From Streptomyces sannanensis (GTDB taxonomy: Bacteria > Actinomycetota > Actinomycetes > Streptomycetales > Streptomycetaceae), in assembly GCF_039536205.1 (NCBI RefSeq), contig NZ_BAAAYL010000001.1, positions 6,510,001-6,574,000 of the forward strand: a stretch of DNA of 64,000 bases, in the 5' to 3' direction. Every line of letters begins with the position of its first letter. Position 1 is the stretch's first letter. Of this stretch, positions 15,953 to 31,716 are shown piece after piece. A program made the position numbers and the translations under genes. The notes beneath the pieces were generated by a model. That model did not search any database and had not been told where the DNA came from. It worked only from the letters and a program-made list of their open reading frames with translations.

Positions 15953-15968
15953 GGGGCCCTCGGGACCC
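15953..15968. promoter_or_regulatory. Box A: OsdR/DosR-type palindrome
   Basis: GGGGCC-CTCG-GGACCC. One of a set of related palindromes in this window with five-base half sites separated by four bases. Centre lies about 92 bases before the DUF7144 gene start. Proposed binding site for the NarL-type regulator encoded at 28730-29425. Confidence 0.55.
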
Positions 15969-16052
15969 GAGCGGAGGCTTGACATGAGCGGACATCCGAG
16001 GTCCGAGGAGCTCCGCTGCCCCGGCGGGGCCGATGAGAATTGAGGAATCGTC

Positions 16053-16493
16053 ATGACGCACACCACCCAATCCGTCCCCGGGAAGACGGCCATCGCGGCC
16101 GGCGGGCTGGTGATCTTCGCCGCCACGATGCTGGTCATCGTCGGTATCCTGGACGTCTTCCGCGGAATCATGGCCATCGCCGATGACGACATCTTTCTCG
16201 CCACGCCGCGTTACGTCTTCAGGTTCGACCTGGCCGGATGGGGCTGGATTCACCTGACCCTCGGAGCGCTGGCGGTCCTGGTGGGTGTCTTCCTGTTCCG
16301 TGCCGTGCTGTGGGCCCGGGTCACGGGTATCGTGATCGCCGCTCTGCTGATCATGGCCAACTTCCTGTCCCTGCCGTACTACCCGTTGTGGTCTCTGGTG
16401 GCGATCGCGCTGAACGCGTTCGTCATCTGGGCGCTGTGCCTCGTGAATCCGGACGAACTTCCGACGGCGCCGCCCGCCCGTGGGAAGCGGTGA
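16053..16493 (+). CDS. DUF7144 family membrane protein
   Basis: 146 residues with four membrane helices (about 15-38, 58-80, 85-105 and 110-132) and the characteristic signature [12 protein letters not shown], then [20 protein letters not shown] and a late [14 protein letters not shown]. This actinobacterial family has no known biochemical role and is frequently seen near stress genes. A weak GAGG-type site precedes ATG 16053. Box A upstream suggests membership of the dormancy regulon. The family name is from memory; membrane topology is clear. Confidence 0.75.
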
Positions 16494-16629
16494 GCCGGCG
16501 GCGGGCCCTGTCCTGCTGCGGACCCCGGCCTGACGACCCCCGGCCGGTCCGCCCTGCTCCCGGCTCCACGCGGATGGCCCTTGACTGGCAAGGCCACCGT
16601 CGCAGGGAGGAGGCGGACCACCGCACAAC

Positions 16630-16645
16630 GGGGCCGAATGGCCTC
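16630..16645. promoter_or_regulatory. Box B: OsdR/DosR-type palindrome
   Basis: GGGGCC-GAAT-GGCCTC. The first 14 bases are identical to box E at 30715. Centre is about 92 bases before the phosphoketolase start codon, in the 236-base gap after the DUF7144 gene. Confidence 0.65.
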
Positions 16646-16729
16646 TCCTGGTCGGCGTGCCATCGGTGCGATGGTGGGAAACCCGTAATGCTGGGATTGA
16701 GCCGGCTCCGGTCGACCACGGAGGAATCC

Positions 16730-19114
16730 ATGAGGAAAGCCAAGCGTCAGGGACGAACGGCACCGACCCCGGAGGAGCTGCAGGGCCTCGACGCCCACTG
16801 GCGGGCCGCCAACTATCTCGCCGCCGGGCAGATCTACCTCATGAGCAACCCGCTGCTGAAGGAACCACTGCAGCCGGAGCACATCAAGCCGCGGCTCCTC
16901 GGACACTGGGGCACCTCACCCGGACTCAACTTCGTCCACACCCATCTCAACCGGGTGGTCAAGGCGCGTGACCTCTCCGCGCTGTGCATCTGGGGGCCCG
17001 GCCACGGCGGACCCGCCGTGCTCGCCAACTCCTGGCTGGAGGGAAGCTACAGCGAGACGTATCCGGACGTGAGCCGGGACGAGGCCGGCATGGCGCGGCT
17101 CTTCCGGCAGTTCTCCTTCCCCGGCGGGGTACCCAGCCATGTCGCCCCCGAGACCCCCGGCTCCATTCACGAGGGCGGCGAACTGGGCTACTCACTGGCG
17201 CACGCGTACGGCGCCGCACTCGACAACCCCGGCCTCCTCGTCGCCTGCGTCATCGGGGACGGTGAGGCGGAGACCGGTCCGCTCGCCGCCTCCTGGCACT
17301 CCAACAAGTTCCTGGACCCGGTCCACGACGGCGCGGTGCTGCCGATCCTCCACCTCAACGGCTACAAGATCGCCAACCCCACCGTGCTGGCCCGGCTCCC
17401 CGCACCGGAGCTGGACGAACTGCTGCGCGGCTACGGGCACGATCCCCTGCACGTCGAGGGCGACAACCCGCACAGCGTGCACCTCGCCATGGCGGAGGCC
17501 ATGGACACCGCGCTGGACCGTATCGCGCACATCCAGGACGAGGCCCGCACCTCCGGTGTGCGGGGACGCCCCCGCTGGCCGGTGATCGTGCTGCGCACCC
17601 CCAAGGGCTGGACCGGTCCCGCCGAGGTCGACGGCGAACCCGTCGAGGGGACCTGGCGATCCCATCAGGTTCCGCTCGCGGAAGTACGCGAGAACCCCGA
17701 GCATCTGCGTCAGTTGGAGGCCTGGCTGCGGTCCTACCGCCCGGAGGAACTCTTCGGTACGGACGGCCGGCCGGTGCCCGAAGTACTGGCCTGCGTGCCG
17801 GACGGCACGCGGCGGCTCGGTGCCACTCCGCACGCCAACGGCGGACTGCTGCTGCGCTCGCTGCCGATCCCGCCACTGGAGGAGTACGCCGTTCCCGTGG
17901 TCAAGCCCGGCACCAGCCTGCACGAGCCCACCCGGGTCCTCGGCGGCCTGCTCGCCCGGATCATGGCAGATACCGCGGACCGCCGGGACTTCCGGGTCGT
18001 GGGCCCCGACGAGACCGCCTCCAACCGGCTGGACGCCCTGTACGGCAGTACGGACAAGGTCTGGCAGGAGGCGATCCTGCCCACCGACGAACATCTCGCC
18101 ACCGACGGCCGGGTGATGGAGGTTCTCTCCGAACACCTCTGCCAGGGCTGGCTGGAGGGCTACCTCCTCACCGGCCGGCACGGGTTCTTCTCCAGCTACG
18201 AGGCCTTCGTCCACATCGTCGACTCCATGGTCAACCAGCACATCAAATGGCTGAAGACATCACGGCAGCTGTCCTGGCGCGCGCCCGTCGCCTCTCTCAA
18301 CTACCTGCTCACCTCGCATGTCTGGCGTCAGGACCACAACGGCTTCTCCCACCAGGATCCCGGCTTCGTCGACCACATTCTCAACAAGAGCCCCGAGGTC
18401 GTGCGCGTCTACCTGCCGCCGGACGCCAACACCCTGCTCTCCGTCGCCGACCACGTCCTGCGCTCCCGCGACTACGTCAACGTCGTCGTCGCCGGCAAGC
18501 AGCCCTGCTTCGACTGGCTCTCCATGGCCGACGCCCGCGCCCATTGCGCCCGCGGGGCCGGAATCTGGGAATGGGCGGGCACCGACGACGGCACCCGCGA
18601 ACCCGACGTGGTTCTCGGCTGTGCGGGTGACGTCCCCACCATGGAAGTCCTCGCCGCAGCCGCCCTTCTGCGTGCTCACCTCCCCGACCTGGCCGTCCGT
18701 GTTGTCAACGTCGTCGACATGACCAGGCTGATGCCCCGCGAGGCACATCCGCACGGCATGACCGACCCCGAGTACGACGCCCTCTTCACCCGTGACAAGC
18801 CGGTGATCTTCGCCTACCACGGCTACCCCTGGCTGATCCACCGTCTCGCCTACCGCCGCACCGGCCATGCCGACATGCACGTCCGCGGCTACAAGGAATC
18901 CGGCACCACGACGACGCCCTTCGACATGGTCGTACGCAACGACCTCGACCGTTACCGCCTGGTCATGGACGTCATCGACCGCGTCCCCGGTCTTGCCGTC
19001 CGCGCGGGCTCCGTCCGCCAGGCCATGGCCGACGTCCGTACCCGCCACCACGCCTGGATCCGCGAGCACGGCACCGACCTGCCCGAGGTCGCGGACTGGT
19101 CCTGGCCCTACTGA
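16730..19114 (+). CDS. xfp: Phosphoketolase (xylulose-5-P / fructose-6-P)
   Basis: 794 residues, the usual family length. Thiamine-diphosphate enzyme that splits xylulose 5-phosphate (and often fructose 6-phosphate) with phosphate into acetyl phosphate plus glyceraldehyde 3-phosphate (or erythrose 4-phosphate). Seen: [19 protein letters not shown] near the N terminus, the [21 protein letters not shown] stretch in two parts, the ThDP motif [12 protein letters not shown], and the [14 protein letters not shown]-terminal signature. ATG 16730 follows GGAGGA. It yields acetyl phosphate, hence ATP through acetate kinase, without respiration, which fits the hypoxia island; Box B lies just upstream. 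Confidence 0.95.
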
Positions 19115-19138
19115 ACGACCGCCGCGTACGGCCCCGGC

Positions 19139-19813
19139 TCATTCGGGCGGCGGGCCGGTGAGATCGCACTTCACGCCGACGACTCCTTCGACGGTCTGCG
19201 CGAGGCGGGCGGCGACGGGTATGAGCCCGCTGTCGCGGACGCTGCCGGTGAGCGTGACCACTCCGTCGGTGACCTCGACCCGGACACCCCGTCGGGACAC
19301 CGTGAAGAGCCGGTCGACGACATCGCGCCGTATCTCCACCGCGATGTCGTCGTCCGGGCGGAGGAAGACCTTCAACAGGTCGGCGCGGCTGACGATGCCC
19401 TGGAGGTTTCCTGCCGCGTCGACCACGGGAAGGCGCTTGACCTGCTGACGGGCCATGACACGGGCGGCCTGGGGGAGCGTGGCATCGGCGTGGATCGTGA
19501 TCGCCGGGGCCGTCATGAGCTCCTCGGCGCTGACTCCGGCGGCCTTGGCCGTGTCGCCGAGGCGTTGCATCTGCTCGATCAGACCCGGTTCGGTGTCGTG
19601 GAACTCCTCCTTGGTGAGGAGATCCGCCTCGGAGATCACCCCGACCACCCGGCCCTCGCCTTCCAGGACGGGCATGGCGGTGACCTTCCACTGCTCCATG
19701 GCGGCGACGATCTCCTTGAACTGCGCGTCGCGCGTGACGGCCACGACGGTCTTCGTCATCACGTCGTTCACGGTGTACGGGGTGGGGGCCATGACGAAGT
19801 CCTCATCAGACAT
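19139..19813 (-). CDS. CBS-domain pair plus BON domain protein (Hrp1-like)
   Basis: 224 residues. Two CBS motifs (about residues 15-75 and 100-155; VNDVMTKTVVAV, EGEGRVVGVISEADLL and VKRLPVVDAAGNLQGIVSRADLL) form a nucleotide-sensing Bateman module, followed by a BON domain (about 165-215; VRVEVTDGVVTLTGSVRD). CBS pairs bind adenine nucleotides; the M. tuberculosis CBS protein Hrp1 belongs to the DosR regulon. Paralogue of 29436-30089. Convergent with phosphoketolase and divergent from the alcohol dehydrogenase, with Box C between. Confidence 0.88.
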   Translation of the reverse strand: MSDEDFVMAPTPYTVNDVMTKTVVAVTRDAQFKEIVAAMEQWKVTAMPVLEGEGRVVGVISEADLLTKEEFHDTEPGLIEQMQRLGDTAKAAGVSAEELMTAPAITIHADATLPQAARVMARQQVKRLPVVDAAGNLQGIVSRADLLKVFLRPDDDIAVEIRRDVVDRLFTVSRRGVRVEVTDGVVTLTGSVRDSGLIPVAARLAQTVEGVVGVKCDLTGPPPE

Positions 19814-19898
19814 GGGCCGGCCTGGACCGTCGGCCGAGCCTCACCCCCAGGGTGGAACGACGGCCGCGAGGCCGGACAGGGTCTGGCGGGCATACCGG

Positions 19899-19914
19899 AG
19901 GGCCGTCCGGCCCA
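19899..19914. promoter_or_regulatory. Box C: OsdR/DosR-type palindrome (divergent)
   Basis: AGGGCC-GTCC-GGCCCA, a perfect GGGCC-N4-GGCCC. Centre is about 75 bases from the alcohol dehydrogenase start and about 93 from the CBS-BON start, so one site could serve both directions. A weaker GGCC-GCGA-GGCC lies nearby at 19862-19873. Confidence 0.6.
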
Positions 19915-19981
19915 AGCGCCCGCGACGCCCGCCGGGAGAACCTGGCAGTGGTGACCACACGTGACCAGGAAGGACGACGTC

Positions 19982-21055
19982 ATGAAGGCACTCGTCTTCC
20001 ACGGACCGGAGCAGACGTCGTGGCAGGACGTCCCGGACCCGGACATCAAGGACGCGGCGGACGCGGTCGTCCGCGTCGACGCCGTGACAATCTGCGGCAC
20101 GGACCTGCACATCATCAAGGGCGACGTGCCCGAGGTGACCCCGGGGCGGATCCTGGGACACGAGGCCGTCGGAGAGGTCATGGAGGCCGGCGCCGACGTG
20201 CGAACGGTCCGCCCCGGCGACCGGGTGCTGGTGTCCTGCATCTCGGCCTGCGGCCGCTGCCGCTTCTGCCGCGAGAACAGGTACGGGCAGTGCCGTGGAG
20301 GGGGCGGCTGGGTCCTCGGACATCTGATCGACGGCACGCAGGCCGAATACGTACGCGTGCCTTTTGCCGACCTGTCCCTCCATCCGCTGCCCCACACGGT
20401 CGACAGCAAGGACGCCGTCCTGTTGGCCGACATCTTCCCCACCGCCTACGAGGTGGGTGTGCTGAACGGGAAGGTCCAGCCGGGCGACACCGTCGTCGTG
20501 GTCGGAGCCGGACCGATCGGACTCGCCACGATCGCGACCGCCCGCTTCTTCAGCCCCGGGCGGATCATCGCCGTCGACCTCGCCGAATCCCGGCTGGCCG
20601 CGGCCCGGGCCATCGGTGCGGACGCCGTGGCCCACGCGGAGGAAGGTCCGGAGCTGCTGGTCGAGGACCTGACGGACGGTCTCGGCGCGGACGTGGTCGT
20701 CGAAGCGGTGGGCGCACCCGAGACATTCCAGATGTGCACCCGCATGGTGCGCCCCGGCGGCCGGGTGGCCAACGTCGGCGTCCACGGCAAGCCCGCTGCC
20801 CTGCATCTCGAACACCTGTGGATCAAGGATGTGACGATCACGACAGGACTGGTCGACACCTACTCCACACCGCTGCTGCTGCAGATGATGGCCGCGGGCA
20901 GGCTCCCCTCCTCCTCGCTGGTCACGCACCACTTCGAGCTGGGCCGGATGGAGGAGGCGTACGACGTGTTCTCCCGCGCGGCCGGCACCGGTGCGATCAA
21001 AGTGGTCCTCGGCAGCCCCCAGCACGACGCTCTCAGCGTCCCCGAGGGGCCGTGA
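19982..21055 (+). CDS. Zinc-dependent alcohol dehydrogenase (medium-chain)
   Basis: 357 residues of the MDR superfamily. Catalytic-zinc region CGTDLHIIKGD and GHEAVGEV; structural zinc loop CISACGRCRFCRENRYGQC; Rossmann motif VVVGAGPIGLATI followed by VDLAESR, whose Asp suggests NAD. Length and motifs resemble streptomycete Zn-ADHs of the IDP-like/threonine dehydrogenase branch, so ethanol, isopropanol or another short alcohol/aldehyde is possible. Start ATG 19982 after AAGGA. First gene of a probable operon with the HAD and GH65 genes (21-base gap, then four-base overlap), under Box C. Could reoxidise NADH when oxygen is short. Confidence 0.88.
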   Translation: MKALVFHGPEQTSWQDVPDPDIKDAADAVVRVDAVTICGTDLHIIKGDVPEVTPGRILGHEAVGEVMEAGADVRTVRPGDRVLVSCISACGRCRFCRENRYGQCRGGGGWVLGHLIDGTQAEYVRVPFADLSLHPLPHTVDSKDAVLLADIFPTAYEVGVLNGKVQPGDTVVVVGAGPIGLATIATARFFSPGRIIAVDLAESRLAAARAIGADAVAHAEEGPELLVEDLTDGLGADVVVEAVGAPETFQMCTRMVRPGGRVANVGVHGKPAALHLEHLWIKDVTITTGLVDTYSTPLLLQMMAAGRLPSSSLVTHHFELGRMEEAYDVFSRAAGTGAIKVVLGSPQHDALSVPEGP

Positions 21056-21076
21056 CCCGGACGGGAGGCGAGGAGC

Positions 21077-21841
21077 ATGTGCGGACCGAGGCTCCGGGCG
21101 GTGGTGTTCGACACCGATGGTGTCCTCACCGACTCGGCCCGGGTCCACGCGGCCGCCTGGAAGCTCGCCTTCGACGGCTGTCTCGACGTCCTGCCTGCCG
21201 CGGACCGGGAGCAGTGCCGCCCGTTCGACCAGGTGGAGGAGTACCGGCGGCTCGTGGACGGGAAGTCCCGGTTCGACGGCGCCCTGGCCTTCCTCACGGC
21301 ACGCGGTATCCACCTGCCCACGGGCGATCCGCAGGACCCGCCGGGATGCGGCAGCGTATGGGCGATCGCCGCCCGCAAGGACCAGGAATTCGTCACCGCG
21401 CTGCGCGAGCGGCCCCCCGAAGCGTTCCCTGACGTGCTTCCTCTGCTGCGCACGCTGCGGGAGGCGGGAGTCCTGTGCGCCGCGGCGTCGGCATCCCGTC
21501 ACGCCCGGGACGTGCTCACCGCGGCCGGAATCGTCGGTCTGTGCGAGACGGTGGTGGACGGCGTGGAGGCGGCCCGCCTGGGACTGCCGGGCAAACCTGA
21601 TCCCGCGCTGTTCGTGGAGGCAGCTCGCAGGCTGGGCATGCCGCCCGCGGCTGCGGCGGTCGTCGAGGACGCTTCGGTCGGTGTGGAGGCGGCCCGGCGT
21701 GGCGGCTTCGGCCTGGTGGTCGGCCTCGACCGCGGAGCGAGCCCGGCCGCCGCGGCGGACCTGCGGGCGCACGGCGCCGACCTGGTCGTCGGCGACCTCT
21801 CCGGCCTGCCGGAGGACATCGCCCGGAGGAACCGGCCATGA
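21077..21841 (+). CDS. HAD phosphatase, beta-phosphoglucomutase type
   Basis: 254 residues. HAD motif I VVFDTDGVLTDS with both aspartates of the phosphotransfer nucleophile/acid pair, a helical cap that is longer than usual (about residues 20-110, including the FDQVEEYRRLVDGKSR substrate segment typical of beta-PGM), motif II around ASASRH, motif III GKPDPALF and motif IV VEDASVGVEAA. Adjacent to a GH65 phosphorylase, it most likely converts beta-glucose 1-phosphate to glucose 6-phosphate. The stop overlaps the GH65 start (ATGA). Confidence 0.88.
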   Translation: MCGPRLRAVVFDTDGVLTDSARVHAAAWKLAFDGCLDVLPAADREQCRPFDQVEEYRRLVDGKSRFDGALAFLTARGIHLPTGDPQDPPGCGSVWAIAARKDQEFVTALRERPPEAFPDVLPLLRTLREAGVLCAAASASRHARDVLTAAGIVGLCETVVDGVEAARLGLPGKPDPALFVEAARRLGMPPAAAAVVEDASVGVEAARRGGFGLVVGLDRGASPAAAADLRAHGADLVVGDLSGLPEDIARRNRP

Positions 21842-24237
21842 CCTCCGAATGGACATGGGAGTACGCCGGGTACGACCCCAAGCAGCAGCGCCTGAGGGAA
21901 GCCCTGTGCACGCTGGGCAACGGCTGCTTCGCCACCCGGGGAGCCGTACCCGAGACCGGTGCCGGGCCGGTGCACTATCCCGGCACGTACGCCGCCGGTG
22001 TCTACAACCGGCTGGAATCCACGGTGGCCGGACGGCGCGTGTCGAACGAGGACATGGTAAACCTGCCGAACTGGCTGCCGCTGCGCTACCGCTGCCATCC
22101 GGACGACGGTCCGCTGGGCGACTGGCTCACCCCCGACCACCGGACCCTCCGGCACTTCCATCTGTCGCTCGACCTGCGAGCCGGAGTGCTCACCCACCGG
22201 ATGCTGTTCCAGGACGGACACGGCCGGCGCCTGACCGTCACCCACACCCGGATCGTGCACATGGGCGATCCGCACCTCGCCGCCCAGCGGACCACCCTGC
22301 GGGCCCACGGATGGAGCGGCACCGTCGAGGTGGAGTCGGCGCTCGACGGCGACGTCTCCAATGCCGGTGTCGACCGCTACCGTGACCTCAACGGCCATCA
22401 TCTGACGGGGCGGCACACCGGCGTGACACCGGACGGGGCCCAGTGGCTGTCCTGCCACACCATCACCTCGCACATCCGGGTCGGTCTGGCCGTACGGACC
22501 ACCACGCGGCCCGAGGTCGTACCCCGCACACACATCAGGGAGAGCAGCAGCGCCCAGGCGTTCACCGTGCCGATCTCCAGGAGCCGGCCGGTCACCGTGG
22601 TGAAGACCGTCGCGCTCCACACCTCCCTGGACCGGCCCGCCGAAGATCCCCCGCAGGCCGCACTCAACCGCGTGGCGCGGGCACCGGCCTTCCAGCAACT
22701 GCTCGTCTCGCACCGGGCTGCATGGGCACACCTGTGGAGCCGGGCAGAGCTGACCGTCCCCGGAGAAGCCGGCCGCATCCTCCATCTGCACATGTTTCAT
22801 GTGCTGCAGACCCTGTCCCCGCACACGGCGGACCTTGATGCCGGGGTGCCGGCCCGAGGCCTGCACGGTGAGGCCTACCGCGGCCATGTGTTCTGGGACG
22901 AGCTGTTCGTCCTGCCGTATCTGAACCTGCACTTCCCGGAAGTGGCACGGGCGCTGCTCACCTACCGTCACCGGAGGCTCGGCGAGGCCTGCGCGGCGGC
23001 CCGGGCCGCGGGACAGCAGGGCGCGATGTACCCGTGGCAGAGCGGCAGCGAGGGCCGTGAGGAGACCCAGGAACTCCATATGAACCCCCGGTCGGGCCGC
23101 TGGATGCCCGATCATTCACGGCTTCAGCGCCATGTCGGCTCCGCGATCGCCCACAATGTGTGGCGTTACGGGCAAGCGACCGGCGACATCGGCTTCCTGC
23201 ACGGCCAGGGCGCCGAGATGCTGCTCCAGATCGCCCGTTTCTGGGCCGGGGCCGCACGATACGACACCTCCGTGGGCCGCTACCGCATCTGCGGGGTCCT
23301 CGGCCCGGACGAGTACCACGACGCGTATCCGGGCGCCACTGCCCCGGGACTGGACGACAACGCGTACACCAACGTGACCGCCGCCTGGGTCATCGCCCGC
23401 GCCCTCGAACTGGTGGACGAGCTGCTCCCTGAGCGCCGGGAGGAACTGCTCGATCAGCTCGCGGTGGACGCCGAGGTCCTGGAGGGCTGGGACGACATCT
23501 CCCGGCGGCTACGGGTGCCGTTCCATGCGGGCGTGGTGAGCCAGTTCGAGGGATACGGCGAACTCGCCGAGCTGAACTGGGACGCGTACCGGGCCCGGTA
23601 CGTGGACATCCGCAGGCTCGACCGGATCCTGGAGGCCGAGGGCGACACGGTCAACCGCTACCAGGCGTCCAAGCAGGCGGACACGCTCATGCTGGGCTAT
23701 CTGTTCTCCCCGGCCGAGCTGACCGGGCTCTTCGCGCGCCTCGGCTACCGCCTGGACGACGAGTTGTGGCGCGCCACGGTCGAGTACTACCTGCACCGGA
23801 CCAGCCATGGCTCGACGCTCAGCAGTCTGGTCCACGGCTGGGTTCTGACCAGACTCAAGGGGGCGGGCGCCTGGCGGTACTGCGAGGAAGCCCTCCTCAG
23901 CGACGTGGCCGACGTCCAGGGCGGCACGACGGGGGAAGGCATTCACCTCGGTGCGATGGCGGGTTCCCTGGACCTCGTGCAGCGCGGGCTGACCGGTCTG
24001 GAGGCCGGTCCCGACGGGCTGCGGCTGGACCCCGTACCCCTCGACGAGATCTCCCGCTTCTCCTTCTCGCTCTGCTACCGCGGCCATGAGGGGGTCCGCG
24101 TCCGGATACTGCCGGGACGGCTGGGCATCGGGGTGCCCGTTTCGCAACAGGGCCCGCTCACCGTGGTCCTTGCGGGCGAACGCCGTGTCACCTTCCCGCC
24201 CGGCGCGCAGCATTGGCTCCGTCTGCCCGGTGCGTGA
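21838..24237 (+). CDS. Glycoside hydrolase family 65 phosphorylase (trehalose/maltose/kojibiose type)
   Basis: 799 residues, full length. N-terminal beta-sandwich (EWTWEYAGYDPKQQRLREAL, TLGNGCFATRGA), helical (alpha/alpha)6 barrel containing GHVFWDELFVLPYLNLHFPE and the catalytic segment CGVLGPDEYHDA with the general-acid Glu, and a C-terminal sandwich. Inverting phosphorylases of this family cleave alpha-glucobioses such as trehalose or maltose with phosphate, giving beta-glucose 1-phosphate and glucose. The coupled beta-PGM gene supports phosphorolysis rather than hydrolysis. Substrate cannot be decided by eye. In mycobacteria a comparable pair (HAD plus GH65) exists. The route saves one ATP per disaccharide, sensible under hypoxia. 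Confidence 0.9.
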   Translation: MTSEWTWEYAGYDPKQQRLREALCTLGNGCFATRGAVPETGAGPVHYPGTYAAGVYNRLESTVAGRRVSNEDMVNLPNWLPLRYRCHPDDGPLGDWLTPDHRTLRHFHLSLDLRAGVLTHRMLFQDGHGRRLTVTHTRIVHMGDPHLAAQRTTLRAHGWSGTVEVESALDGDVSNAGVDRYRDLNGHHLTGRHTGVTPDGAQWLSCHTITSHIRVGLAVRTTTRPEVVPRTHIRESSSAQAFTVPISRSRPVTVVKTVALHTSLDRPAEDPPQAALNRVARAPAFQQLLVSHRAAWAHLWSRAELTVPGEAGRILHLHMFHVLQTLSPHTADLDAGVPARGLHGEAYRGHVFWDELFVLPYLNLHFPEVARALLTYRHRRLGEACAAARAAGQQGAMYPWQSGSEGREETQELHMNPRSGRWMPDHSRLQRHVGSAIAHNVWRYGQATGDIGFLHGQGAEMLLQIARFWAGAARYDTSVGRYRICGVLGPDEYHDAYPGATAPGLDDNAYTNVTAAWVIARALELVDELLPERREELLDQLAVDAEVLEGWDDISRRLRVPFHAGVVSQFEGYGELAELNWDAYRARYVDIRRLDRILEAEGDTVNRYQASKQADTLMLGYLFSPAELTGLFARLGYRLDDELWRATVEYYLHRTSHGSTLSSLVHGWVLTRLKGAGAWRYCEEALLSDVADVQGGTTGEGIHLGAMAGSLDLVQRGLTGLEAGPDGLRLDPVPLDEISRFSFSLCYRGHEGVRVRILPGRLGIGVPVSQQGPLTVVLAGERRVTFPPGAQHWLRLPGA

Positions 24238-24260
24238 CCCGGCGGACGGCTGTCCCACAG

Positions 24261-24300
24261 GGTGTCCTCACGAGCAGGGTGTCCTGAGAGGCGGTGTCCT
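24261..24300. repeat. Three GGTGTCCT direct repeats at convergent gene ends
   Basis: GGTGTCCT occurs at 24261, 24278 and 24293 (periods 17 and 15), with flanking CACG shared by the first and third. They lie between the GH65 stop and the nitroreductase stop. No strong terminator hairpin was seen here; function unknown. Confidence 0.6.
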
Positions 24301-25289
24301 CACGCGATGTCGAGGACTTCGGGCACCGGCCGACGCGGGGTCGCCGGACCCGCCGGGCCGTATCCGAGGCGGATCACCATCTGCACATGGCCCATCGACG
24401 ATGCCGGGTCACGCACCGCCCATCGCAGTTCGGGCCATTCCAGGGCGTGGGACGTGAGGGAGGTGGCCAGTCCGTCCGAGGTGGCCTGGAGCAGTACCCG
24501 TTCCATGGCCTGACCGGCTCGCAGCCAGTCCTCCGGCCGGTCCTCGGTCGTGCCCAGCAGGGCGAGCCGGGGGGTCTTCTCGAAGGTGGCCGAGCCACGG
24601 CCGGGAACGGCGCGCCGACCGGCGAAGTCGCGGACCGGAGCGGTGACGTCGTGCTGTCGGGGACCGAGGGCATGAGCAGGGATTCCCTCCGGCCTGGAAG
24701 GGCCCTCCTCGGTACCCGTTCGCGTCCAGTGGGCGATCTCCTGCTGGATTTCGGGGGCGAGGGCCTCGCGGCCTTCGGCGTCGTGCACGAGGTCCAGCAC
24801 GGATTGCACGTGCCATGTGTCGGGGAAGAACAGGCGGGCGCCTTCGAGCAACGCCGCGCCGCACAGCCCGTCCACGATGTCCGACGGGATCTCCTCGTCG
24901 GTGAAGGGGAAGCGGCTGGTGCGCCGTCGGCTGATCGCGGGGTGGAGGACGGCGAGATCGTCGTCCGGGCCCACGGGTCCGGCAAGGCCGACCTCGGCGA
25001 GCAGCAGGGGGTCGGCGGGGTCGGGGAGGAGCCTGACGTCCGCTTCCCGGCCCGCGTGGGCGGCCGCGACACGCAGGTTGAAGAGCGCGGCTCCGCAGCC
25101 GATGTGCAGGGCACGGGTCGTCGGGTCGGCCTTGGGCATTGTGCGCTCCGGATCGGCGCGCATCTCCAGGGAGGCGGTGTCGCGCAGGAAGCGGAACTTC
25201 CACGGCTGGGCGTTGTGCATCGACGGAGCCGCCGTGGCGTCCTCGACGAGGTGCGTCACGGAGGTTGAGTCGAGTGGTCGTGTAGGCAC
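24300..25289 (-). CDS. Acg family FMN-binding nitroreductase-like protein
   Basis: 329 residues. N-terminal flavin-binding signature APSMHNAQPWKFRF, the GCGAALFNLRVA segment, and the C-terminal LTSHALEWPELR... MVIRLGYGP region mark it as the Acg (Rv2032/Rv3131) subgroup of nitroreductase folds: two half-domains fused in one chain. In mycobacteria these are among the most strongly DosR-controlled proteins, possibly storing or sequestering flavin. Start GTG 25289 has GGAGG at ideal spacing. Upstream the frame is open without a stop into the DUF4389 gene, so a read-through fusion of 496 residues is possible (see finding). Box D lies 76-91 bases upstream. Confidence 0.85.
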   Translation of the reverse strand: MPTRPLDSTSVTHLVEDATAAPSMHNAQPWKFRFLRDTASLEMRADPERTMPKADPTTRALHIGCGAALFNLRVAAAHAGREADVRLLPDPADPLLLAEVGLAGPVGPDDDLAVLHPAISRRRTSRFPFTDEEIPSDIVDGLCGAALLEGARLFFPDTWHVQSVLDLVHDAEGREALAPEIQQEIAHWTRTGTEEGPSRPEGIPAHALGPRQHDVTAPVRDFAGRRAVPGRGSATFEKTPRLALLGTTEDRPEDWLRAGQAMERVLLQATSDGLATSLTSHALEWPELRWAVRDPASSMGHVQMVIRLGYGPAGPATPRRPVPEVLDIA

Positions 25290-25790
25290 TGGGGGTCTCC
25301 CTCCGGGAGCGGGCCGCCCGCGCGGCCACGGTTCCAGCGTCACGGCCCGGCAGCCGGGGCAGGAGGGGCCGAGGGTCCCCGTGGGGTCGCCGAACGGCCC
25401 TGGTCCTTCGCCGCACGGACGCCGGGGCCAGGTCCGGGCGACGCGCTCGGTCCCGCCCATGTCGAGCCGGAACGGCGGGTAGGCGTCCGCCATCAGGGTC
25501 GCGTAGGCCACCACGCGCAGCACCCACCGGTCGAGCCCGATGATCAAGTCGAACAGGTCCTGCGGGTACTTCCCGGTGAGGGCCGGAACGACGGCGGCGA
25601 TGAGGACCAGGACGCAGATCAGGCCGCCGGCCCACCAGTCGTCCCGGTAGCCGTTCAGGAAGAAGGCGGTCACGATGTAGTGCGGGATGGCCGGCAGCCA
25701 CCACTTCACCGGCCACGGCCGGCGCGACTGGGGCGTGTCGAGCGCCGCCTCCACGCTGACCGGCCGGTGTTCCGCCGGAGTCGTCGTCAT
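25290..25790 (-). CDS. DUF4389-type membrane protein, no stop before nitroreductase gene
   Basis: Starts at ATG 25790 with a near-perfect GAAGGAGGTGA ribosome-binding site. Residues 1-105 match the DUF4389 pattern: RRPWPVKWWLPAIPHYIV, one or two membrane helices (about 55-80), TGKYPQDLFDLIIG, then ADAYPPFRLDMGG, which is normally close to the end of short members. Here the frame runs on for about 60 low-complexity Pro/Gly/Arg residues and enters the nitroreductase in frame. The tail is compositionally unlike a domain and contains Box D, so it looks like promoter DNA read through after loss of a stop codon. Function of DUF4389 is unknown. Confidence 0.75.
25365..25380. promoter_or_regulatory. 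Box D: OsdR/DosR-type palindrome
   Basis: GGGGCC-GAGG-GTCCCC; the right half GTCCC equals the mycobacterial DosR half site. Centre is about 83 bases before the nitroreductase GTG start, yet the site lies within the open frame linking DUF4389 to the nitroreductase. Confidence 0.55.
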
Positions 25791-25860
25791 GCCGGTCACC
25801 TCCTTCGAGGTCCCCATGACCAGGCTGACCATGGCCGGCCCACGCGTTCACCGCGGACCG

Positions 25861-25876
25861 GGGACCTTCGGTCCGG
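25861..25876. promoter_or_regulatory. Box F: weaker OsdR/DosR-type palindrome (divergent)
   Basis: GGGACC-TTCG-GTCCGG, containing the exact palindrome GGACC-TTC-GGTCC. The spacer is one base shorter than in the other boxes if scored as a palindrome. It lies about 78 bases from the DUF4389 start and 94 from the USP start, the same distance range as boxes A-E. Confidence 0.4.
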
Positions 25877-25962
25877 CGACGGCCCCCTGTGGCCCTCGTT
25901 CCGGCACGGTCCCCCGTGACACGGTGAGTGGTGACGCCGCTGGGACGCCACAAGGAGGAACC

Positions 25963-26832
25963 ATGGGCGACAGCAGAACCGGCGGCCCGGAACTCGGGTG
26001 GGTCGTGGCGGGCGTCGACGGTTCGGCCGACGCGATGACAGCCGCACTGTGGGCGGCGGCCGAGGCCGACCGGCGAGGGCAGCCCCTGAACCTCGTGCAC
26101 GCCATGGACACCGAAGGCCGGGACCTGTACGTGTCCGCCGAGATGATGCGGAACATCCGGAGAACGGGGAACGCGCTGCTTGAGGACGCCGCCGCGCAGG
26201 TGGCACAACGCTTTCCCGGCTTGCGGGTCACCACGGAACTCAGCCCGCTGGAACCGTCGGCCGGCCTTCACGACGTGGCCGGCGGGCACGGCACGATCGT
26301 CATCGGGAACCGCGGTCTCGGAGGGTTCACCGCACTGCTGCTCGGCTCGGTCGGGCTACGTGTGGCTGCCGGTGCGCAAGGACCCGTCGTCGTGGTGAGG
26401 GCCGCCGGTGAAGGCGTGGACAAGGGCGTGGTGCTGGCCGCAGTACGGGACCGGGCCGACCTCGAGTGCGTCCGCCACGCCGCGCGCGCCGCGCAGCTGC
26501 GCACGGCGTCGCTGCGGCTGCTGAGCGTCCGGAACGTACTCCATCTGGGCGAGATCGCCCAGGAACACGAGCAACAGCTGCGGGAGGTCGCCGGCCGGAT
26601 CCACGAAGAGTTCCCCGGCCTCACCGTGACCGAGGACATCGACAAGGGCAGCTCGGTCGCCGGGGCACTCGTCGAAGCATCCCGCCGCGCGGATCTGCTG
26701 GTCATGGGCGGCCGCCGGGCCCCTCACGGCATCTCTCCGACGCTGGGCCGGGTGACCCACGCGGTGCTGCATCACGCCCACTGCCCGGTCGAACTCATCC
26801 CCCGCGTCGCGAAACCGGCCCCTACCGGGTGA
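25963..26832 (+). CDS. Universal stress protein, two Usp domains
   Basis: 289 residues: two tandem Usp folds (about 10-150 and 155-285). The first has VAGVDGSADAMTAALWAA and the ATP-loop pattern IGNRGLGGFTALLLGSVGLRV; the second ends MGGRRAPHGISPTLGRVTHAVLHHAHCPVELI. These cytoplasmic ATP-binding proteins are hallmark members of DosR-type regulons. ATG 25963 follows AAGGAGG. Divergent from the DUF4389 gene, with Box F between. It precedes the sensor kinase by about 166 bases, same strand. Confidence 0.92.
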   Translation: MGDSRTGGPELGWVVAGVDGSADAMTAALWAAAEADRRGQPLNLVHAMDTEGRDLYVSAEMMRNIRRTGNALLEDAAAQVAQRFPGLRVTTELSPLEPSAGLHDVAGGHGTIVIGNRGLGGFTALLLGSVGLRVAAGAQGPVVVVRAAGEGVDKGVVLAAVRDRADLECVRHAARAAQLRTASLRLLSVRNVLHLGEIAQEHEQQLREVAGRIHEEFPGLTVTEDIDKGSSVAGALVEASRRADLLVMGGRRAPHGISPTLGRVTHAVLHHAHCPVELIPRVAKPAPTG

Positions 26833-26998
26833 TGTGCCACCGTCGTGGCCTGGTGGGACCGTGCGTCGGGTGCTTCCATGGAACTGGCGGAAAGGGCCCC
26901 TAGGGAGACGCGGAGAAGCGGCACTCGTACCGCGCACCGCGCAATCAGGATCCGCGAGAAGCGGGTGGCCCTTTCCGTTCATCACCGTCGGAGGGCCC

Positions 26999-28717
26999 AT
27001 GGCCGAAAGAGACCGGTGGGGCGCAGGCCGGATCCCACGGCTGCGGCTCGACGAGCTCCTCGACGAGCTCCAGGTGCGCATCGACGAGATGCGTGGTGCC
27101 AGGGACAAGCTGAACGGTCTGCTGGAGGCCGTGCTCTCCGTGGGGCGCGAGCTGGATCTGCCTCAGGTGCTCCAGGGGATCGTGGAGGCCGCGGTGGTCC
27201 TGGTGGATGCCGAATACGGGGCGCTCGGGATCATCGGCGACGACAAGAAGCTCGCTCGGTTCCTGCCGGTGGGCATCAGCGACGATCTGCGCGCCCGGAT
27301 CGGCGACCTGCCCTCCGGGCACGGACTTCTCGGAGAGCTCATCCGGCATCCCCAGCCGCTGAGGCTGGCGGAGCTCTCCGAACACCCGGCCTCGTCGGGT
27401 TTCCCGGCGCACCATCCGCCGATGCACTCGTTCCTGGGAGTGCCCGTCAGGGTGCGTGACGAGGTGTTCGGAAACCTCTATCTGACGCAGAAGCGCGGCG
27501 AGGCGGAGTTCGACGCCGAGGACGAAGCGGTGCTGTCGACACTGGCCGTGGCCGCCGGCATCGCCATCGACAACGCCCGCCTCTTCGAGGAGGTCAGGCT
27601 CAGGGAGCGCTGGCTGGCGGCGAGCGCGGAATGCACCAGTGCCCTGCTGTCCGGTTCCTCGGAGCTCGAGGTGCTCGAGATGATGGTCGAACGGGCCCGC
27701 CGGATCACCGCGGCGGAGCTGGGTGTCGTCTATCTCGCGGAAGCGGGCGGATGCCTGCGCGGGGCGCTGGCGCTCGGCGAGAGGGCCGAGGCGCACCGCG
27801 GCCTGACGCTGCCTCGCGAAGGCACCCTGGCGGCTGCCGCGTTCGCCGCGGGCAGGCCCGTCACCACACCGGATGTGACGAGCGATGCGCGGGTGACGTT
27901 CGAACCGGGCCGGTGGAAGGGCTTCGGCCCTGCCGTGGCGGTCCCGGTGGGGACGAAGGACGGTGTAAGGGGCGTGCTCATGCTGGCGCGTCGCGCCGGG
28001 AGTCCGCCGTTCAACGAGTCGGAGACGGAACCGCTGTCCGGGTTCGCCGGGCAGGCCGCGCTGGCTCTCGAGCTGGCCGACCGGCGGCGGGACGCCGAAC
28101 AGATGAGCCTGCTGGCAGACCACGACAGAATCGCCCGTGACCTGCACGATCTTGCCATTCAGCGCTTGTTCGCGACCGGTATGACGTTGCAGAGCGCCCA
28201 GCGTTTCGTCGAGCACCCCGAGGCGTCCGAGCGGCTCGGACGGGCGATCGACGACCTCGATGCCACCATCAAGATCATCCGGTCGACCATCTTCGGACTG
28301 CGTGAGCACGAGACGCGGGAGGGCATGCCGGGGCTGAGGGTCCGCGCCGTACGGACCGTCGAGGAGGCGGCCCGGGCGCTGGGCTTCGCACCGGCGCTGC
28401 GTATGGAGGGCCTGATCGACACGGATGTCCCGCACCCGGTCGCAGACGAGGTGGTCGCCGTCCTCGGCGAGGCGCTGACCAATGTGGCGCGCCATGCGCG
28501 GGCCTCGAAGGTGGAGGTGTCGCTCGTGGTGCGCGGCGGGACGCTGACGGTGGCCGTGTCCGACGACGGCATCGGCATCGCCGACAACGGCCCCCGCAGC
28601 GGTCTGCGCAATCTGGCGGAACGTGCCGAGAGGCAGGGCGGTGAGCTGACCGTGGTCCGCGGCGCCTCGGGCGGCACTCGCCTGGAGTGGCGGGTTCCGC
28701 TGACCCGGCGGCCATGA
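26999..28717 (+). CDS. osdK: GAF-GAF sensor histidine kinase, DosS/DevS/OsdK type
   Basis: 572 residues, the same length and layout as M. tuberculosis DosS: an N-terminal helix, GAF-A (about 55-200), GAF-B (about 220-360), HisKA_3 with RDLHDLAIQRLFATGM (phospho-His at about 383) and HATPase_c (EALTNVARHARAS, DDGIGI, SGLRNLAERAE). In DosS the haem ligand His149 sits in a HPPM segment of GAF-A; here FPAHHPPMHSFLGVPVRV aligns, with His139 as counterpart. This suggests a haem-based oxygen/NO/CO or redox sensor. ATG 26999 follows GGAGGG. It is convergent with the cognate-looking regulator, only 12 bases apart. Symbol given by resemblance to S. coelicolor OsdK. Confidence 0.85.
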   Translation: MAERDRWGAGRIPRLRLDELLDELQVRIDEMRGARDKLNGLLEAVLSVGRELDLPQVLQGIVEAAVVLVDAEYGALGIIGDDKKLARFLPVGISDDLRARIGDLPSGHGLLGELIRHPQPLRLAELSEHPASSGFPAHHPPMHSFLGVPVRVRDEVFGNLYLTQKRGEAEFDAEDEAVLSTLAVAAGIAIDNARLFEEVRLRERWLAASAECTSALLSGSSELEVLEMMVERARRITAAELGVVYLAEAGGCLRGALALGERAEAHRGLTLPREGTLAAAAFAAGRPVTTPDVTSDARVTFEPGRWKGFGPAVAVPVGTKDGVRGVLMLARRAGSPPFNESETEPLSGFAGQAALALELADRRRDAEQMSLLADHDRIARDLHDLAIQRLFATGMTLQSAQRFVEHPEASERLGRAIDDLDATIKIIRSTIFGLREHETREGMPGLRVRAVRTVEEAARALGFAPALRMEGLIDTDVPHPVADEVVAVLGEALTNVARHARASKVEVSLVVRGGTLTVAVSDDGIGIADNGPRSGLRNLAERAERQGGELTVVRGASGGTRLEWRVPLTRRP

Positions 28718-28729
28718 GGAGTCCGACGG

Positions 28730-29425
28730 TCAGTGCTGCCGCTGCTCGTGCTCGTGGATCTGGGCCGCGATGACCGCGGCCTGGACGCGCCGTTCCACGC
28801 CCAGCTTCGACAGCAGCCGGGAGATGTGATTCTTGACGGTCTTCTCCGACAGATAGAGCTTCTTGCCGATCTGACGGTTGGTCAACCCCTCTCCGATCAG
28901 GTCCAGGACGGCCCGCTCTCGCTCGGAGAGCACGGCCAGTCGTACGTCCTCGGGCGGCGGCTGCTCGGTCACGGGATCGCGCAGCGAGCGCATCAGGCGT
29001 GTGGTCGTGGCGGGGTCGAGCATCGACTGCCCGGTCGCCACCGTGCGTACCGCGGAGACCAGGTCCGATCCCTTGATCTGCTTGAGGACGTATCCGGCGG
29101 CGCCTGCCATGATCGCGTCCAGCAGGGCGTCCTCGTCGTCGAACGAGGTCAGCATCAGACAGGCGAGTTCCGGCATGCGCGAGCGCAGCTCACGGCAGAC
29201 GGTGATGCCGTCACTGTCGGGAAGACGGACATCGAGGACCGCGACGTGCGGGCGCAGCGCGGGTCCCCGGGCCAGCGCCTGCTCGGCGGTCGAGGCATCG
29301 CCCACCACCTCGATGTCCGGTTCGGCGTCGAGCAGGTCGTGCAGTCCGCGGCGGACGACTTCATGGTCGTCGAGGACGAAGACCCGGATGGGCTTCTCCG
29401 CCGAGAAGACAGGTGCCTCGGGCAT
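28730..29425 (-). CDS. osdR: NarL-type response regulator, DosR/DevR/OsdR type
   Basis: 231 residues. Receiver domain with FVLDDHEVVRRGLHDLLDAEPD, phospho-Asp65 in AVLDVRLPDSDGI, LTSFDDED and an alanine-rich AGAAGYVLKQIKG; then a linker and a LuxR helix-turn-helix with LTNRQIGKKLYLSEKTVKNHISRLLSKLGVERR, residue for residue very like DosR ([21 protein letters not shown]). Start ATG 29425 follows GAGGGG and lies ten bases after the CBS-BON stop. It is the last gene of a flavodoxin-CBS-regulator operon behind Box E, so probably self-regulated. It would bind the GGGCC-N4-GGCCC boxes in this window. Confidence 0.88.
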   Translation of the reverse strand: MPEAPVFSAEKPIRVFVLDDHEVVRRGLHDLLDAEPDIEVVGDASTAEQALARGPALRPHVAVLDVRLPDSDGITVCRELRSRMPELACLMLTSFDDEDALLDAIMAGAAGYVLKQIKGSDLVSAVRTVATGQSMLDPATTTRLMRSLRDPVTEQPPPEDVRLAVLSERERAVLDLIGEGLTNRQIGKKLYLSEKTVKNHISRLLSKLGVERRVQAAVIAAQIHEHEQRQH

Positions 29426-29435
29426 CTCAGCCCCC

Positions 29436-30089
29436 TCACGGCCGGGTGCCGTCGCCCACCGGGGCGCCGAGATCCACACGGATGTCGACGACGCCCTCGA
29501 CCGCGCGCACGGCCCGGGCCAGCAGGGGGACCAGAGCCCGGTCCCGGAGGCTGCCGCCGAGGGTGACCACGCCCTCCTCCACGGACACCTCCACCTGCGC
29601 CGCGGGTGGCAGGTCAGCGACCACGGTGCGCCGGATCTCCTCGGCGATGTCCTCGTCCGGCCGGAGAAACACCTTCAGCAGGTCGCTGCGGCTGACGACA
29701 CCCTCCAGCATGCCGATGTCGTCGACCACCGGAAGCCGTTTCACATGGCGACGCGCCATGATCCTGGCCGCTTCGGCGACGGTTGCGTCCGCGTGGACGG
29801 TGACGGCCGGGCTGGACATCAGTTCCTCGGCGAACACCGCGCCGGCTTTCGCCGCGTCCGACAGCGGTCGGTCCGCCTGCGTCGGGTCGTCCACGCGGAG
29901 CTCCTCCTTGGGGAGCAGGTCGGCCTCGGAGACGACGCCGATCACGCGGCCCTCACCCTCCAGCACCGGCACGGCGCTGACCTTCCACTGCTCCATCAGC
30001 GCGACGATCTCCTTGTAGGTCGCACGGCGCCCCACGGCGACGGCGGTGTGCGTCATGACATCGCTCACGGTGTGTGGAGAATCAGGCAT
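29436..30089 (-). CDS. CBS-domain pair plus BON domain protein (Hrp1-like)
   Basis: 217 residues, same architecture as 19139-19813: CBS1 (VSDVMTHTAVAV, EGEGRVIGVVSEADLL), CBS2 (VKRLPVVDDIGMLEGVVSRSDLLKVF) and BON (VEVSVEEGVVTLGGSLRDRAL). ATG 30089 has GGAGG at good spacing and overlaps the flavodoxin stop by eight bases, indicating coupling. Such proteins probably sense adenylate charge; the BON domain usually binds membranes or partner proteins. Presence of two paralogues in one island suggests either heteromers or division of targets. Confidence 0.88.
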   Translation of the reverse strand: MPDSPHTVSDVMTHTAVAVGRRATYKEIVALMEQWKVSAVPVLEGEGRVIGVVSEADLLPKEELRVDDPTQADRPLSDAAKAGAVFAEELMSSPAVTVHADATVAEAARIMARRHVKRLPVVDDIGMLEGVVSRSDLLKVFLRPDEDIAEEIRRTVVADLPPAAQVEVSVEEGVVTLGGSLRDRALVPLLARAVRAVEGVVDIRVDLGAPVGDGTRP

Positions 30090-30633
30090 CGCGGCCCTCC
30101 TTGACCGAGCTGATGTGCTCTTCCCGGTGATGTGCGGGTTCCGCCGCCACGGCGGCGGCGATGCTCTCGGCCCACGCGGCGATCCGGTCGAAGTCACGGA
30201 AGTCCCCTCCGCGCCCCTCGTCGAGGATCATGCGGGCGACCCGGCCCCGCGCTCCCTCCGTCAGCCGTCCCCCGAAGGTGACATGCTCCTCGGCACCCAG
30301 ACTGCGCTCCGCGCGATGGGCGGTGCGCACCGGAGGGATGTTCCGCTGCGATGCCGAGGCGTCGAGAGGGCCGCTGCTGAACAGCCACACCAGACGTCCG
30401 GCCAGGTGATGGCGGTGACGGCGGGCGAAGCGCCGGGCGTCCCGGTGCCAGCGGCCCATGTAGAGCGCACCGCCGAGCACGATGGCGTCGTACGGACCGA
30501 CATCGCGGACCCCGGCGGCGGGGCGCGCCTCCGCTTCGAGCCCGTGGCTGCGCAGGACGTCGGCGATGAAGTCGGCGATCTCCGCCGTCGAGCCGTTCTT
30601 GGTGCCGTAGGCCACAAGTGCTATACGCGTCAT
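30082..30633 (-). CDS. Flavodoxin-domain protein (protoporphyrinogen oxidase-like fold)
   Basis: 183 residues. N-terminal flavodoxin fold: ALVAYGTKNGSTAEIADFIAD is the FMN phosphate loop; next DAIVLGGALYMGRWHRDARRF and LVWLFSSGPLD carry the HemG-like flavodoxin pattern. No membrane anchor. Expected to be an FMN redox partner in low-oxygen metabolism. ATG 30633 has AAGGG nine bases upstream; ATG 30642, three codons earlier, is too close to that site. First gene of the operon that ends with the OsdR-like regulator. Box E is about 90 bases upstream. Confidence 0.82.
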   Translation of the reverse strand: MTRIALVAYGTKNGSTAEIADFIADVLRSHGLEAEARPAAGVRDVGPYDAIVLGGALYMGRWHRDARRFARRHRHHLAGRLVWLFSSGPLDASASQRNIPPVRTAHRAERSLGAEEHVTFGGRLTEGARGRVARMILDEGRGGDFRDFDRIAAWAESIAAAVAAEPAHHREEHISSVKEGRDA

Positions 30634-30714
30634 CGTGATCATGCCCTTCCCGGGACCCGGCGCACGTCACATCGATCTGATTACCACGCTCGCCGACCGG
30701 CCCGCGACCGCACA

Positions 30715-30730
30715 GGGGCCGAATGGCCCC
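30715..30730. promoter_or_regulatory. Box E: OsdR/DosR-type palindrome (divergent)
   Basis: GGGGCC-GAAT-GGCCCC. Half sites are perfect over six bases. Its first 14 bases are identical to Box B. Centre lies about 90 bases from the flavodoxin start and 97 from the USP start, so it may control both the regulator's own operon and the stress gene. Confidence 0.7.
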
Positions 30731-30819
30731 GTCCATGGGCCGCCCTGCCCATCGCCGCCGCACGCGGCCCGGTGGGAGCGTCATAGCAGACAACCGTGGA
30801 CACACCCAAGAGGTGCGTC

Positions 30820-31716
30820 ATGCGCCAGACCCTCACCGCAGGCATCGACGGTTCCGCCGAAAGCCTCGACGCCGCCCAGTGGGCGGCCCGCGAAGCGCTT
30901 CTGCGCGACCTGCCGCTGACCCTGCTGCACGCCGGGTACGCACCTGCTTTCCGTACCCGCCCGCCGGAAGCCGGCGCAACGGCCGAGCGCGAGGACCATG
31001 CCCTCGACACGGCCGTGCGGAAGCTGCTCGCCGGCCACCCGACGCTGAAGCTCGTTCCGCTCCGCGTTCCCGAGGCGCCGGTCGAGGCCCTGCTGGCGGC
31101 GGCGGAGTCCTCGCAGATGCTGGTCCTCGGCTCCCACGGATTCAGCGGCTTCGCCGGCTTCGTGGTCGGGTCCGTCGCCTTGGACGTCACCGCCCGCGCC
31201 CGGTGCCCGGTCGTCCTGGTCCGTGCGGGTGAACGCCCCGAGGACGAACACCTGCTCACTCTCCTCGGCGCCCCGTCGGCACGAACGCCGTACCGCCCGG
31301 TGGTCCTCGGCCTCGACCTGGCGCAGTCCGGTGACGAGCTCCTGGCGTATGCCTTCGCCGCGGCCGCGGCCCGGAGCGCACCCCTGCGGGTCCTGCACGT
31401 CTGGCGGCTTCCGCTGCTGTACGCGCACGGCAGGGTCCATGAGCCGTTGTCGACGCCCGATGTGCAGGCCGTACAGGCCGAGCTGGAACGTGCGCTCACC
31501 GACGCGCTGGACGGCTGGCGGGACAAGTACCCCGGCATCGAGGTGACCGAGCACCTCGTCGACGGCAGGGCCGCCCACCATCTGCTGTTGGCCTCCACCG
31601 GGGCGAGTCTTGTCGTCGTCGGCCGCCGCGACTCCGCCGGCCCCCGCCTGGGCCCGGTGACACACTCGGTGATCCACCATGTCACCTGCCCCGTTGCGGT
31701 GGTGCCGCACGCCTGA
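30820..31716 (+). CDS. Universal stress protein, two Usp domains
   Basis: 298 residues with two Usp domains (about 1-145 and 150-295). First domain: TAGIDGSAESLDAAQWAAREA and LGSHGFSGFAGFVVGSVALDV (ATP loop G-x2-G-x9-G-S). Second: VVLGLDLAQSGDELLAYAFAAAA and VGRRDSAGPRLGPVTHSVIHHVTCPVAVV. Start ATG 30820 after AGAGGTG; ATG 30803? is not used and an upstream in-frame GTG at 30796 has no ribosome-binding site. Divergent from the flavodoxin-CBS-osdR operon across Box E. The pair of USPs flanks the kinase/regulator genes. Confidence 0.92.
   Translation: MRQTLTAGIDGSAESLDAAQWAAREALLRDLPLTLLHAGYAPAFRTRPPEAGATAEREDHALDTAVRKLLAGHPTLKLVPLRVPEAPVEALLAAAESSQMLVLGSHGFSGFAGFVVGSVALDVTARARCPVVLVRAGERPEDEHLLTLLGAPSARTPYRPVVLGLDLAQSGDELLAYAFAAAAARSAPLRVLHVWRLPLLYAHGRVHEPLSTPDVQAVQAELERALTDALDGWRDKYPGIEVTEHLVDGRAAHHLLLASTGASLVVVGRRDSAGPRLGPVTHSVIHHVTCPVAVVPHA

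Follow-up and report, generated by a model that had tools for sequence, protein, structure and literature searches.

Palindromic boxes at a regular distance from start codons in a putative OsdKR regulon of Streptomyces sannanensis

Genes of the island

The window analysed here is a stretch of 64,000 nucleotides of Streptomyces sannanensis (contig NZ_BAAAYL010000001.1, positions 6,510,001 to 6,574,000). Our subject is an island within it in which the genes of a response regulator, OsdR, and a sensor kinase, OsdK, lie among genes of the kinds expected as OsdR targets (universal stress proteins (USPs), an alcohol dehydrogenase and a nitroreductase, and also CBS-BON proteins), and in which six palindromic boxes, A to F, stand upstream of nine start codons. 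The genes are as follows, in window coordinates.

16053..16493, + strand: DUF7144 protein (Pfam PF23636; hydrophobic stretches by eye)
16730..19114, + strand: Xfp phosphoketolase (xfp), the only copy found in the genome at E <= 1e-30
19139..19813, - strand: CBS-CBS-BON protein
19982..21055, + strand: zinc alcohol dehydrogenase family protein (adh; frame open from GTG 19961)
21077..21841, + strand: HAD hydrolase resembling beta-phosphoglucomutase, under that family's curated cut-off
21838..24237, + strand: glycoside hydrolase family 65 (GH65) protein (PF03632, 432.6 bits; NCBIfam cut-offs not reached), possibly a disaccharide phosphorylase
24300..25289, - strand: Acg (Rv3131-like) flavin mononucleotide oxidoreductase, the nitroreductase (NF047509, 335.5 bits, cut-off 199)
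25455..25790, - strand: DUF4389 domain stretch, its frame continuing into the nitroreductase without a stop
25963..26832, + strand: universal stress protein with two domains
26834..28717, + strand: OsdK kinase, GAF-GAF-HisKA_3-HATPase, start probably near 26999
28730..29425, - strand: OsdR response regulator, NarL-type receiver and GerE helix-turn-helix
29436..30089, - strand: CBS-CBS-BON protein, immediately upstream of osdR
30082..30633, - strand: flavodoxin-like protein (PF12724), heading a probable flavodoxin-cbs-osdR unit
30820..31716, + strand: universal stress protein with two domains (PF00582, E 4.1e-45)

The best sequence match of OsdR in the Protein Data Bank (PDB) is DevR (3c3w, E 1.1e-70), with the phospho-accepting aspartate and the recognition-helix motif EKTVKN aligned; K179 and N183 presumably have the roles that we assume for them in a regulator of the OsdR/DevR type. 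The GAF domain of OsdK is of the DosT/DevS type (2vzw, E 1.5e-50), and its aligned HPPM histidine is what we take to be the haem ligand. Judged by its sequence, OsdK is the partner kinase, with a haem GAF domain of the DosS/DosT type. The roles of K182 and Asp54 in DevR-type regulators are those given in titles and opening lines of abstracts. The two genes are convergent and do not form one operon; at the head of the probable unit of each stands a box.

On the minus strand a single open frame of 510 amino acids (24300-25832) joins DUF4389 and the nitroreductase, with box D in its linker. A conserved fusion of the two was considered and rejected, as none of the 34 listed matches from relatives (20 genomes) covers query residues 1-102 and DUF4389 stands next to the nitroreductase in none of the three loci with a DUF4389 match. 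Around box D the linker shows codon usage like that of non-coding DNA, and two blocks within the nitroreductase itself also come out negative. Since no fusion is conserved and the linker looks non-coding, we have treated the two as separate genes in one frame.

Position and conservation of the boxes

Two matrices were used for scoring, neither of which contains any sequence of the window. W0 was built from the 25 distinct sites in Table 1 of the Streptomyces coelicolor paper (PMC5069765), and W1 from 95 distinct sites that were collected in related osdR loci, taking the 80 best among 522 (77 of them titled Streptomyces, some genomes giving two). The boxes match the OsdR consensus AGGGCCGATCGGCCCT upstream of targets to different degrees, and the list includes two neighbouring sites and one match inside a gene.

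15953..15968: box A, GGGGCCCTCGGGACCC, centre -92 from the DUF7144 start; W1 7.4, W0 5.35; weak
16630..16645: box B, GGGGCCGAATGGCCTC, centre -92 from the phosphoketolase start; W1 10.7, W0 11.3; good
16749..16764: matrix match inside the phosphoketolase reading frame, centre about +27; W1 14.0; function uncertain
19899..19914: box C, AGGGCCGTCCGGCCCA, divergent, -93 from CBS and -75 from alcohol dehydrogenase; W1 18.1, W0 16.6; strong
25365..25380: box D, GGGGCCGAGGGTCCCC, -83 from the chosen nitroreductase start; W1 8.6, W0 7.6; moderate
25386..25401: second box beside D, GTCGCCGAACGGCCCT, 21 bp from D; W0 9.1, background rate 1e-4 per position
25860..25875: box E, GGGGACCTTCGGTCCG, divergent, -77 from DUF4389 and -95 from USP; W1 9.1, W0 8.0; moderate
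30715..30730: box F, GGGGCCGAATGGCCCC, divergent, -89 from flavodoxin and -97 from USP; W1 16.6, W0 14.3; strong
30736..30751: weak second box beside F, TGGGCCGCCCTGCCCA, 21 bp from F; W0 3.6, W1 6.2, a score reached by 0.15% of background positions

An earlier, sequence-only reading of this DNA had described six palindromes, three of them between divergent starts, centred 75 to 97 bases from nine start codons. All six are present in the window, C, E and F are the divergent ones, and the recomputed distances agree. Box C is the top site of the window under both matrices, and the in-gene match at 16749-16764, within the phosphoketolase coding sequence, is the third best under W1. The nine starts are, however, the selection of that earlier reading, and some are choices among alternatives. 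The gene caller favoured 19961 for the alcohol dehydrogenase (-54 instead of -75) and 30642 for the flavodoxin (-80 instead of -89), and it called 24300-25832 as a single frame, so that the starts at 25289 and 25790 had to be picked by eye. Moreover, as the nine starts share six boxes they are not nine independent draws.

The letters of the motif are weak evidence by themselves, since their counts are near chance both in the window and in the genome. In the window the pattern has 75 matches with at most one mismatch (67.5 expected; as many in 24 of 100 shuffles) and 7 without mismatch (3.05 expected; 4 of 100 shuffles), while the exact core GGGCCGNNCGGCCC is found 28 times in the genome as against 25 for a reversed control pattern. 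Counting motifs was thus dropped as an argument of its own. What discriminates is the zone from -60 to -110, in which all nine island starts (six boxes) reach W1 7.4, compared with 4 of 264 other called starts taken from 12 stretches of 20 kb of the same genome and from the window outside the island. Six further island starts, left out of the 264 and scored separately, gave no site of that score in the zone, and five of them are probably within operons. The claim that the regular position, and not the motif alone, carries the argument therefore stands. The check that the sequence-only reading proposed, enrichment upstream of genes across the genome, had a mixed outcome: the exact core is not in excess, but its five best-scoring sites outside the island are all intergenic, one of them 60-110 bases from a called start.

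The same placement is found in the related loci. For the homologues, tblastn hits with a coverage under 40% of the query, weaker overlapping hits and starts at most 260 bp from a locus end were excluded, leaving 520 starts, of which 192 had a site of W0 at least 11 within 250 bp. Of these sites, 87 lie at -75 to -100, and over all 80 loci the boxes are concentrated between -80 and -100, a concentration that we did not find in print. By gene, a site was present for the cbs1 (20/49), usp2 (33/88), osdR (33/83), osdK (11/66), usp1 (25/40), cbs2 (34/72), nitroreductase (7/38), xfp (8/24), flavodoxin (5/12) and adh (16/27) starts, that is, for 17-62% in the ten families, compared with 0.7-2.6% for column-permuted matrices. 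No site was seen at the starts of the related gh65 (0/9) and HAD (0/8) genes, together 0/17; in the window both stand behind adh and hence probably inside an operon. In the 22 loci where cbs is directly upstream of osdR, as it is here, osdR has no box of its own in 21, compared with an own box in 27 of the remaining 58. Among xfp relatives, 8 of 24 have a box of W0 at least 13 at -79 to -95, and 7 of these 8 have a second one (W0 at least 8) at 21 bp. A conserved site inside xfp was looked for as well and rejected, the match at 16749-16764 having a counterpart in 1 of 24 relatives (locus L038).

Such pairs of boxes are a more general feature. After leaving out sites outside -130 to -60 or below W0 11, and then those with near-identical flanks (133 reduced to 117), a second site (W0 at least 6) was found at 20-23 bp on either side of 42 of the 117 non-redundant sites, where 0.48 were expected, compared with one at 25-28 bp and one at 30-33 bp. 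The pairs are unevenly spread among genes (osdR 0/27, flavodoxin 0/4, xfp 6/7), and in the window they comprise D (partner at +21, 25386) and, weakly, F (30736). In Mycobacterium tuberculosis, DevR binds cooperatively to adjacent sites of high and low affinity (PMC3029386). The main text of PMC5069765 does not use the word "tandem", and no 21-bp spacing rule for Streptomyces was among the open-literature matches listed, although no search was worded for spacing.

Exact-core sites elsewhere and contrary evidence

Leaving out four mirror copies in an inverted repeat, and box C, 23 of the 28 exact-core sites were scored. The five outside the island with W1 at least 18.5 are all intergenic, compared with four of the other 18. 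They precede a unit with VKOR and the regulator gene osdR2 (-133 from the first gene, which has no Pfam match), a YkuD protein gene (-41), a flavohaemoglobin gene (-141, followed by another box after 22 bp), a CBS-BON gene (-185) and a USP gene (-73). For these sites the function of the genes fits better than the position does. The asymmetric core GGGACCTTCGGYCC, printed for three S. coelicolor targets (PMC5069765), occurs once in the 7.83-Mb genome, and that occurrence is box E.

The flavohaemoglobin gene (L111:3909-5355, C1:3752909 on) deserves a mention in its own right, with two OsdR-type boxes 22 bp apart upstream, the first of which (W1 21.1) scores highest among the 24 distinct exact-core sites. 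Another box, at L002:7915 (C1:499915), lies between the gene of a COX1-type oxidase subunit and osdK2.

A number of results speak against reading the boxes as a positional OsdR regulon, beginning with the near equality of exact-core and control counts given above. Of the five top sites outside the island just the one before the USP gene falls within 60-110 of a called start, the rest lying at -41 to -185. The W1 cut of 18.5 was fixed after the scores were seen, and of the next five sites four (W1 16.1-18.0) are inside genes and the fifth (16.0) is at -251. At 19-24 bp no second site accompanies box A, B, C or E. A -10 element conserved at constant spacing from the box was looked for in 117 sites and not found, with at most one TANNNT per offset. 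None of the four starts of DUF4389 relatives has a site, and in the window DUF4389 heads a unit; 15 of the 24 xfp relatives have no box. Under the S. coelicolor matrix box A falls just under the top 40 of the window, and a site of at least 7.4 at -60 to -110 was found in 1 of 29 DUF7144 relatives, so that box A is unsupported as a conserved feature and has little support apart from its position. For the nitroreductase the corresponding figure is 7 of 29 (all 29 loci were taken in this count and 28 in another scoring). Box D gains support from these zone sites together with its partner at 21 bp.

The proposed regulon, its rivals and known systems

We are confident in reading the island as the core of the OsdKR regulon in a Streptomyces-like genome. 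OsdK, through its DosT/DosS-type GAF domain, would sense low oxygen or the redox state and phosphorylate OsdR; phosphorylated dimers of OsdR would bind the 16-bp palindromes, at some promoters as neighbouring pairs two helical turns (21 bp) apart, and would activate promoters with start codons some 90 bases beyond the palindrome. Under this control would stand universal stress proteins, CBS-BON proteins, the Acg-type flavoenzyme and, as an energy branch, phosphoketolase, alcohol dehydrogenase, GH65 and HAD. Box F would drive flavodoxin-cbs-osdR and box E usp-osdK and, since these boxes head the units of the regulator and of the kinase, we propose that both are autoregulated from two convergent operons.

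The view that no regulator reads the palindromes, and that they arose by chance or are G+C-rich inverted repeats of a structural kind (terminators, extragenic repeats), would account for motif counts near expectation. We consider it extremely improbable, given the gap between real and column-permuted matrices, the location of three boxes between divergent starts and not at gene ends, and the sharp preference of second copies for 20-23 bp. Quite different is the idea that only part of the set is functional: boxes C, F and B would serve as OsdR sites, as probably would E and D, and chance would account for box A and for the match within the phosphoketolase gene. It is compatible with the OsdKR regulon proposed here and we regard it as a serious possibility, somewhat short of even. 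The low scores of box A and the rarity of both sites in relatives (1/29 and 1/24) agree with it; box A, however, stands at -92 exactly as box B does, and 4 of the 264 other starts score as high.

A further question is which regulator reads the boxes. The genome has further OsdR-like regulators, one with 68% identity at C1:501704 (OsdR2, with a mirror copy) and one with 62% at C1:3541198 (OsdR3). Both keep the recognition-helix motif EKT[V/I]KN, and for this reason the regulator at 28730-29425, which the sequence-only reading had named as the reader of the boxes, need not be the sole one: its DevR/DosR-type family was borne out, and which OsdR-type protein binds boxes A-F we infer from sequence comparison. 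The island might consist of real DosR-type sites mainly under OsdR2, OsdR3 or a mixture. In favour of this, OsdR2 comes with a convergent kinase of its own, OsdK2, and with a nearby box scoring W1 20.3, and the OsdK of S. coelicolor works with the orphan regulator SCO3818 as well (PMC5069765). We think such control by a paralogue rather unlikely, as the first OsdR and OsdK are encoded within the island, in probable operons headed by boxes, and a box upstream of osdR itself has been published for S. coelicolor (PMC5069765).

Around the paralogues we noticed some other features. OsdR2 (L002:9683-10387) carries a 7-residue insertion right after the phospho-Asp loop motif DVRL. Near the second OsdK-OsdR pair, L002:2799-4046 (C1:494799-496046, - strand) encodes a SpoIIE/PP2C phosphatase with a fused DosT/DosS-like GAF domain, possibly an oxygen-sensing phosphatase. 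Matches at mirror coordinates (e.g., 501704/6906990 and 526759/6882581 in the 7,409,353-bp contig) reach at least about 526 kb, which suggests terminal inverted repeats of more than 0.5 Mb or a duplication in the assembly.

The phosphoketolase and the GH65 branch are likely OsdR targets. Together with the alcohol dehydrogenase and the HAD hydrolase they suggest substrate-level formation of adenosine triphosphate at low oxygen. In Streptomyces lividans, pentose-phosphate enzymes rise alongside the OsdR group (PMC6302529) and would supply the substrate of phosphoketolase. None of the main texts of PMC5069765, PMC6302529 and PMC11472566 contains the word "phosphoketolase", and among the matches listed no title or abstract opening ties the enzyme to DosR or OsdR; the R. 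equi genome paper (PMC2947987) mentions it separately from DosR. Acetyl phosphate is an in vitro phosphodonor for OsdR (PMC5069765), and one may speculate, with low expectations, that OsdR-induced phosphoketolase makes acetyl phosphate that phosphorylates OsdR without the kinase, in a self-latching fermentative energy state. If so, boxes paired at 21 bp would make the switch sharper at the promoters that have them.

The OsdR box, its position and the gene set hold across many Streptomyces. With a DevR-type regulator, a DosT-like kinase, the usual targets and boxes matching the consensus, the island is, as the sequence-only reading proposed, of the DosR/OsdR type, and we regard it as a well-supported fresh example of this known class and not as a new system. 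What it adds, and where its interest lies, is the architecture of boxes paired at 21 bp, the phosphoketolase and GH65 branch as likely targets, and the presence in one genome of several OsdR paralogues that may share sites.

The closest comparison is OsdKR of S. coelicolor (SCO0203/SCO0204, island SCO0167-SCO0219), where OsdR binds predicted AGGGCCGATCGGCCCT sites in vitro in electrophoretic mobility shift assays (PMC5069765). As the published consensus is already GGGCC-N4-GGCCC, the GGGCC half-site is the known Streptomyces form and the difference from GGGAC-N4-GTCCC is not new. The two systems share the box, the types of regulator and kinase and the USP, alcohol dehydrogenase and nitroreductase targets, and several of the printed box positions are similar, near -80 to -100 (-81, -88, -99, -100 and -102, within a full range of -391 to +36; PMC5069765). 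They differ in that no nitrate reductase or pyruvate phosphate dikinase is present among the window genes examined (15.9-31.7 kb), which include instead phosphoketolase and GH65/HAD. Moreover, an osdR-osdK operon is stated for S. coelicolor (PMC5069765), whereas the genes of the window converge. In 49 of the 80 related loci, too, osdK adjoins osdR on the opposite strand; the order of the two genes is a matter of arrangement and not a functional requirement. In S. lividans, island genes rise together with osdR by RNA-seq, although the main text names pentose-phosphate enzymes and not phosphoketolase (PMC6302529). The DevR/DosR-DevS/DosT system of M. tuberculosis is alike in its regulator and sensor families, in the 5-4-5 palindrome, in USP and Acg targets and in adjacent sites, bound cooperatively there (PMC3029386) and recognized in our island as sequence pairs. 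Its half-site is mainly GGGAC as against GGGCC here, PMC2947987 cites GGGHC in a consensus of the DosR box, and the gene content differs.

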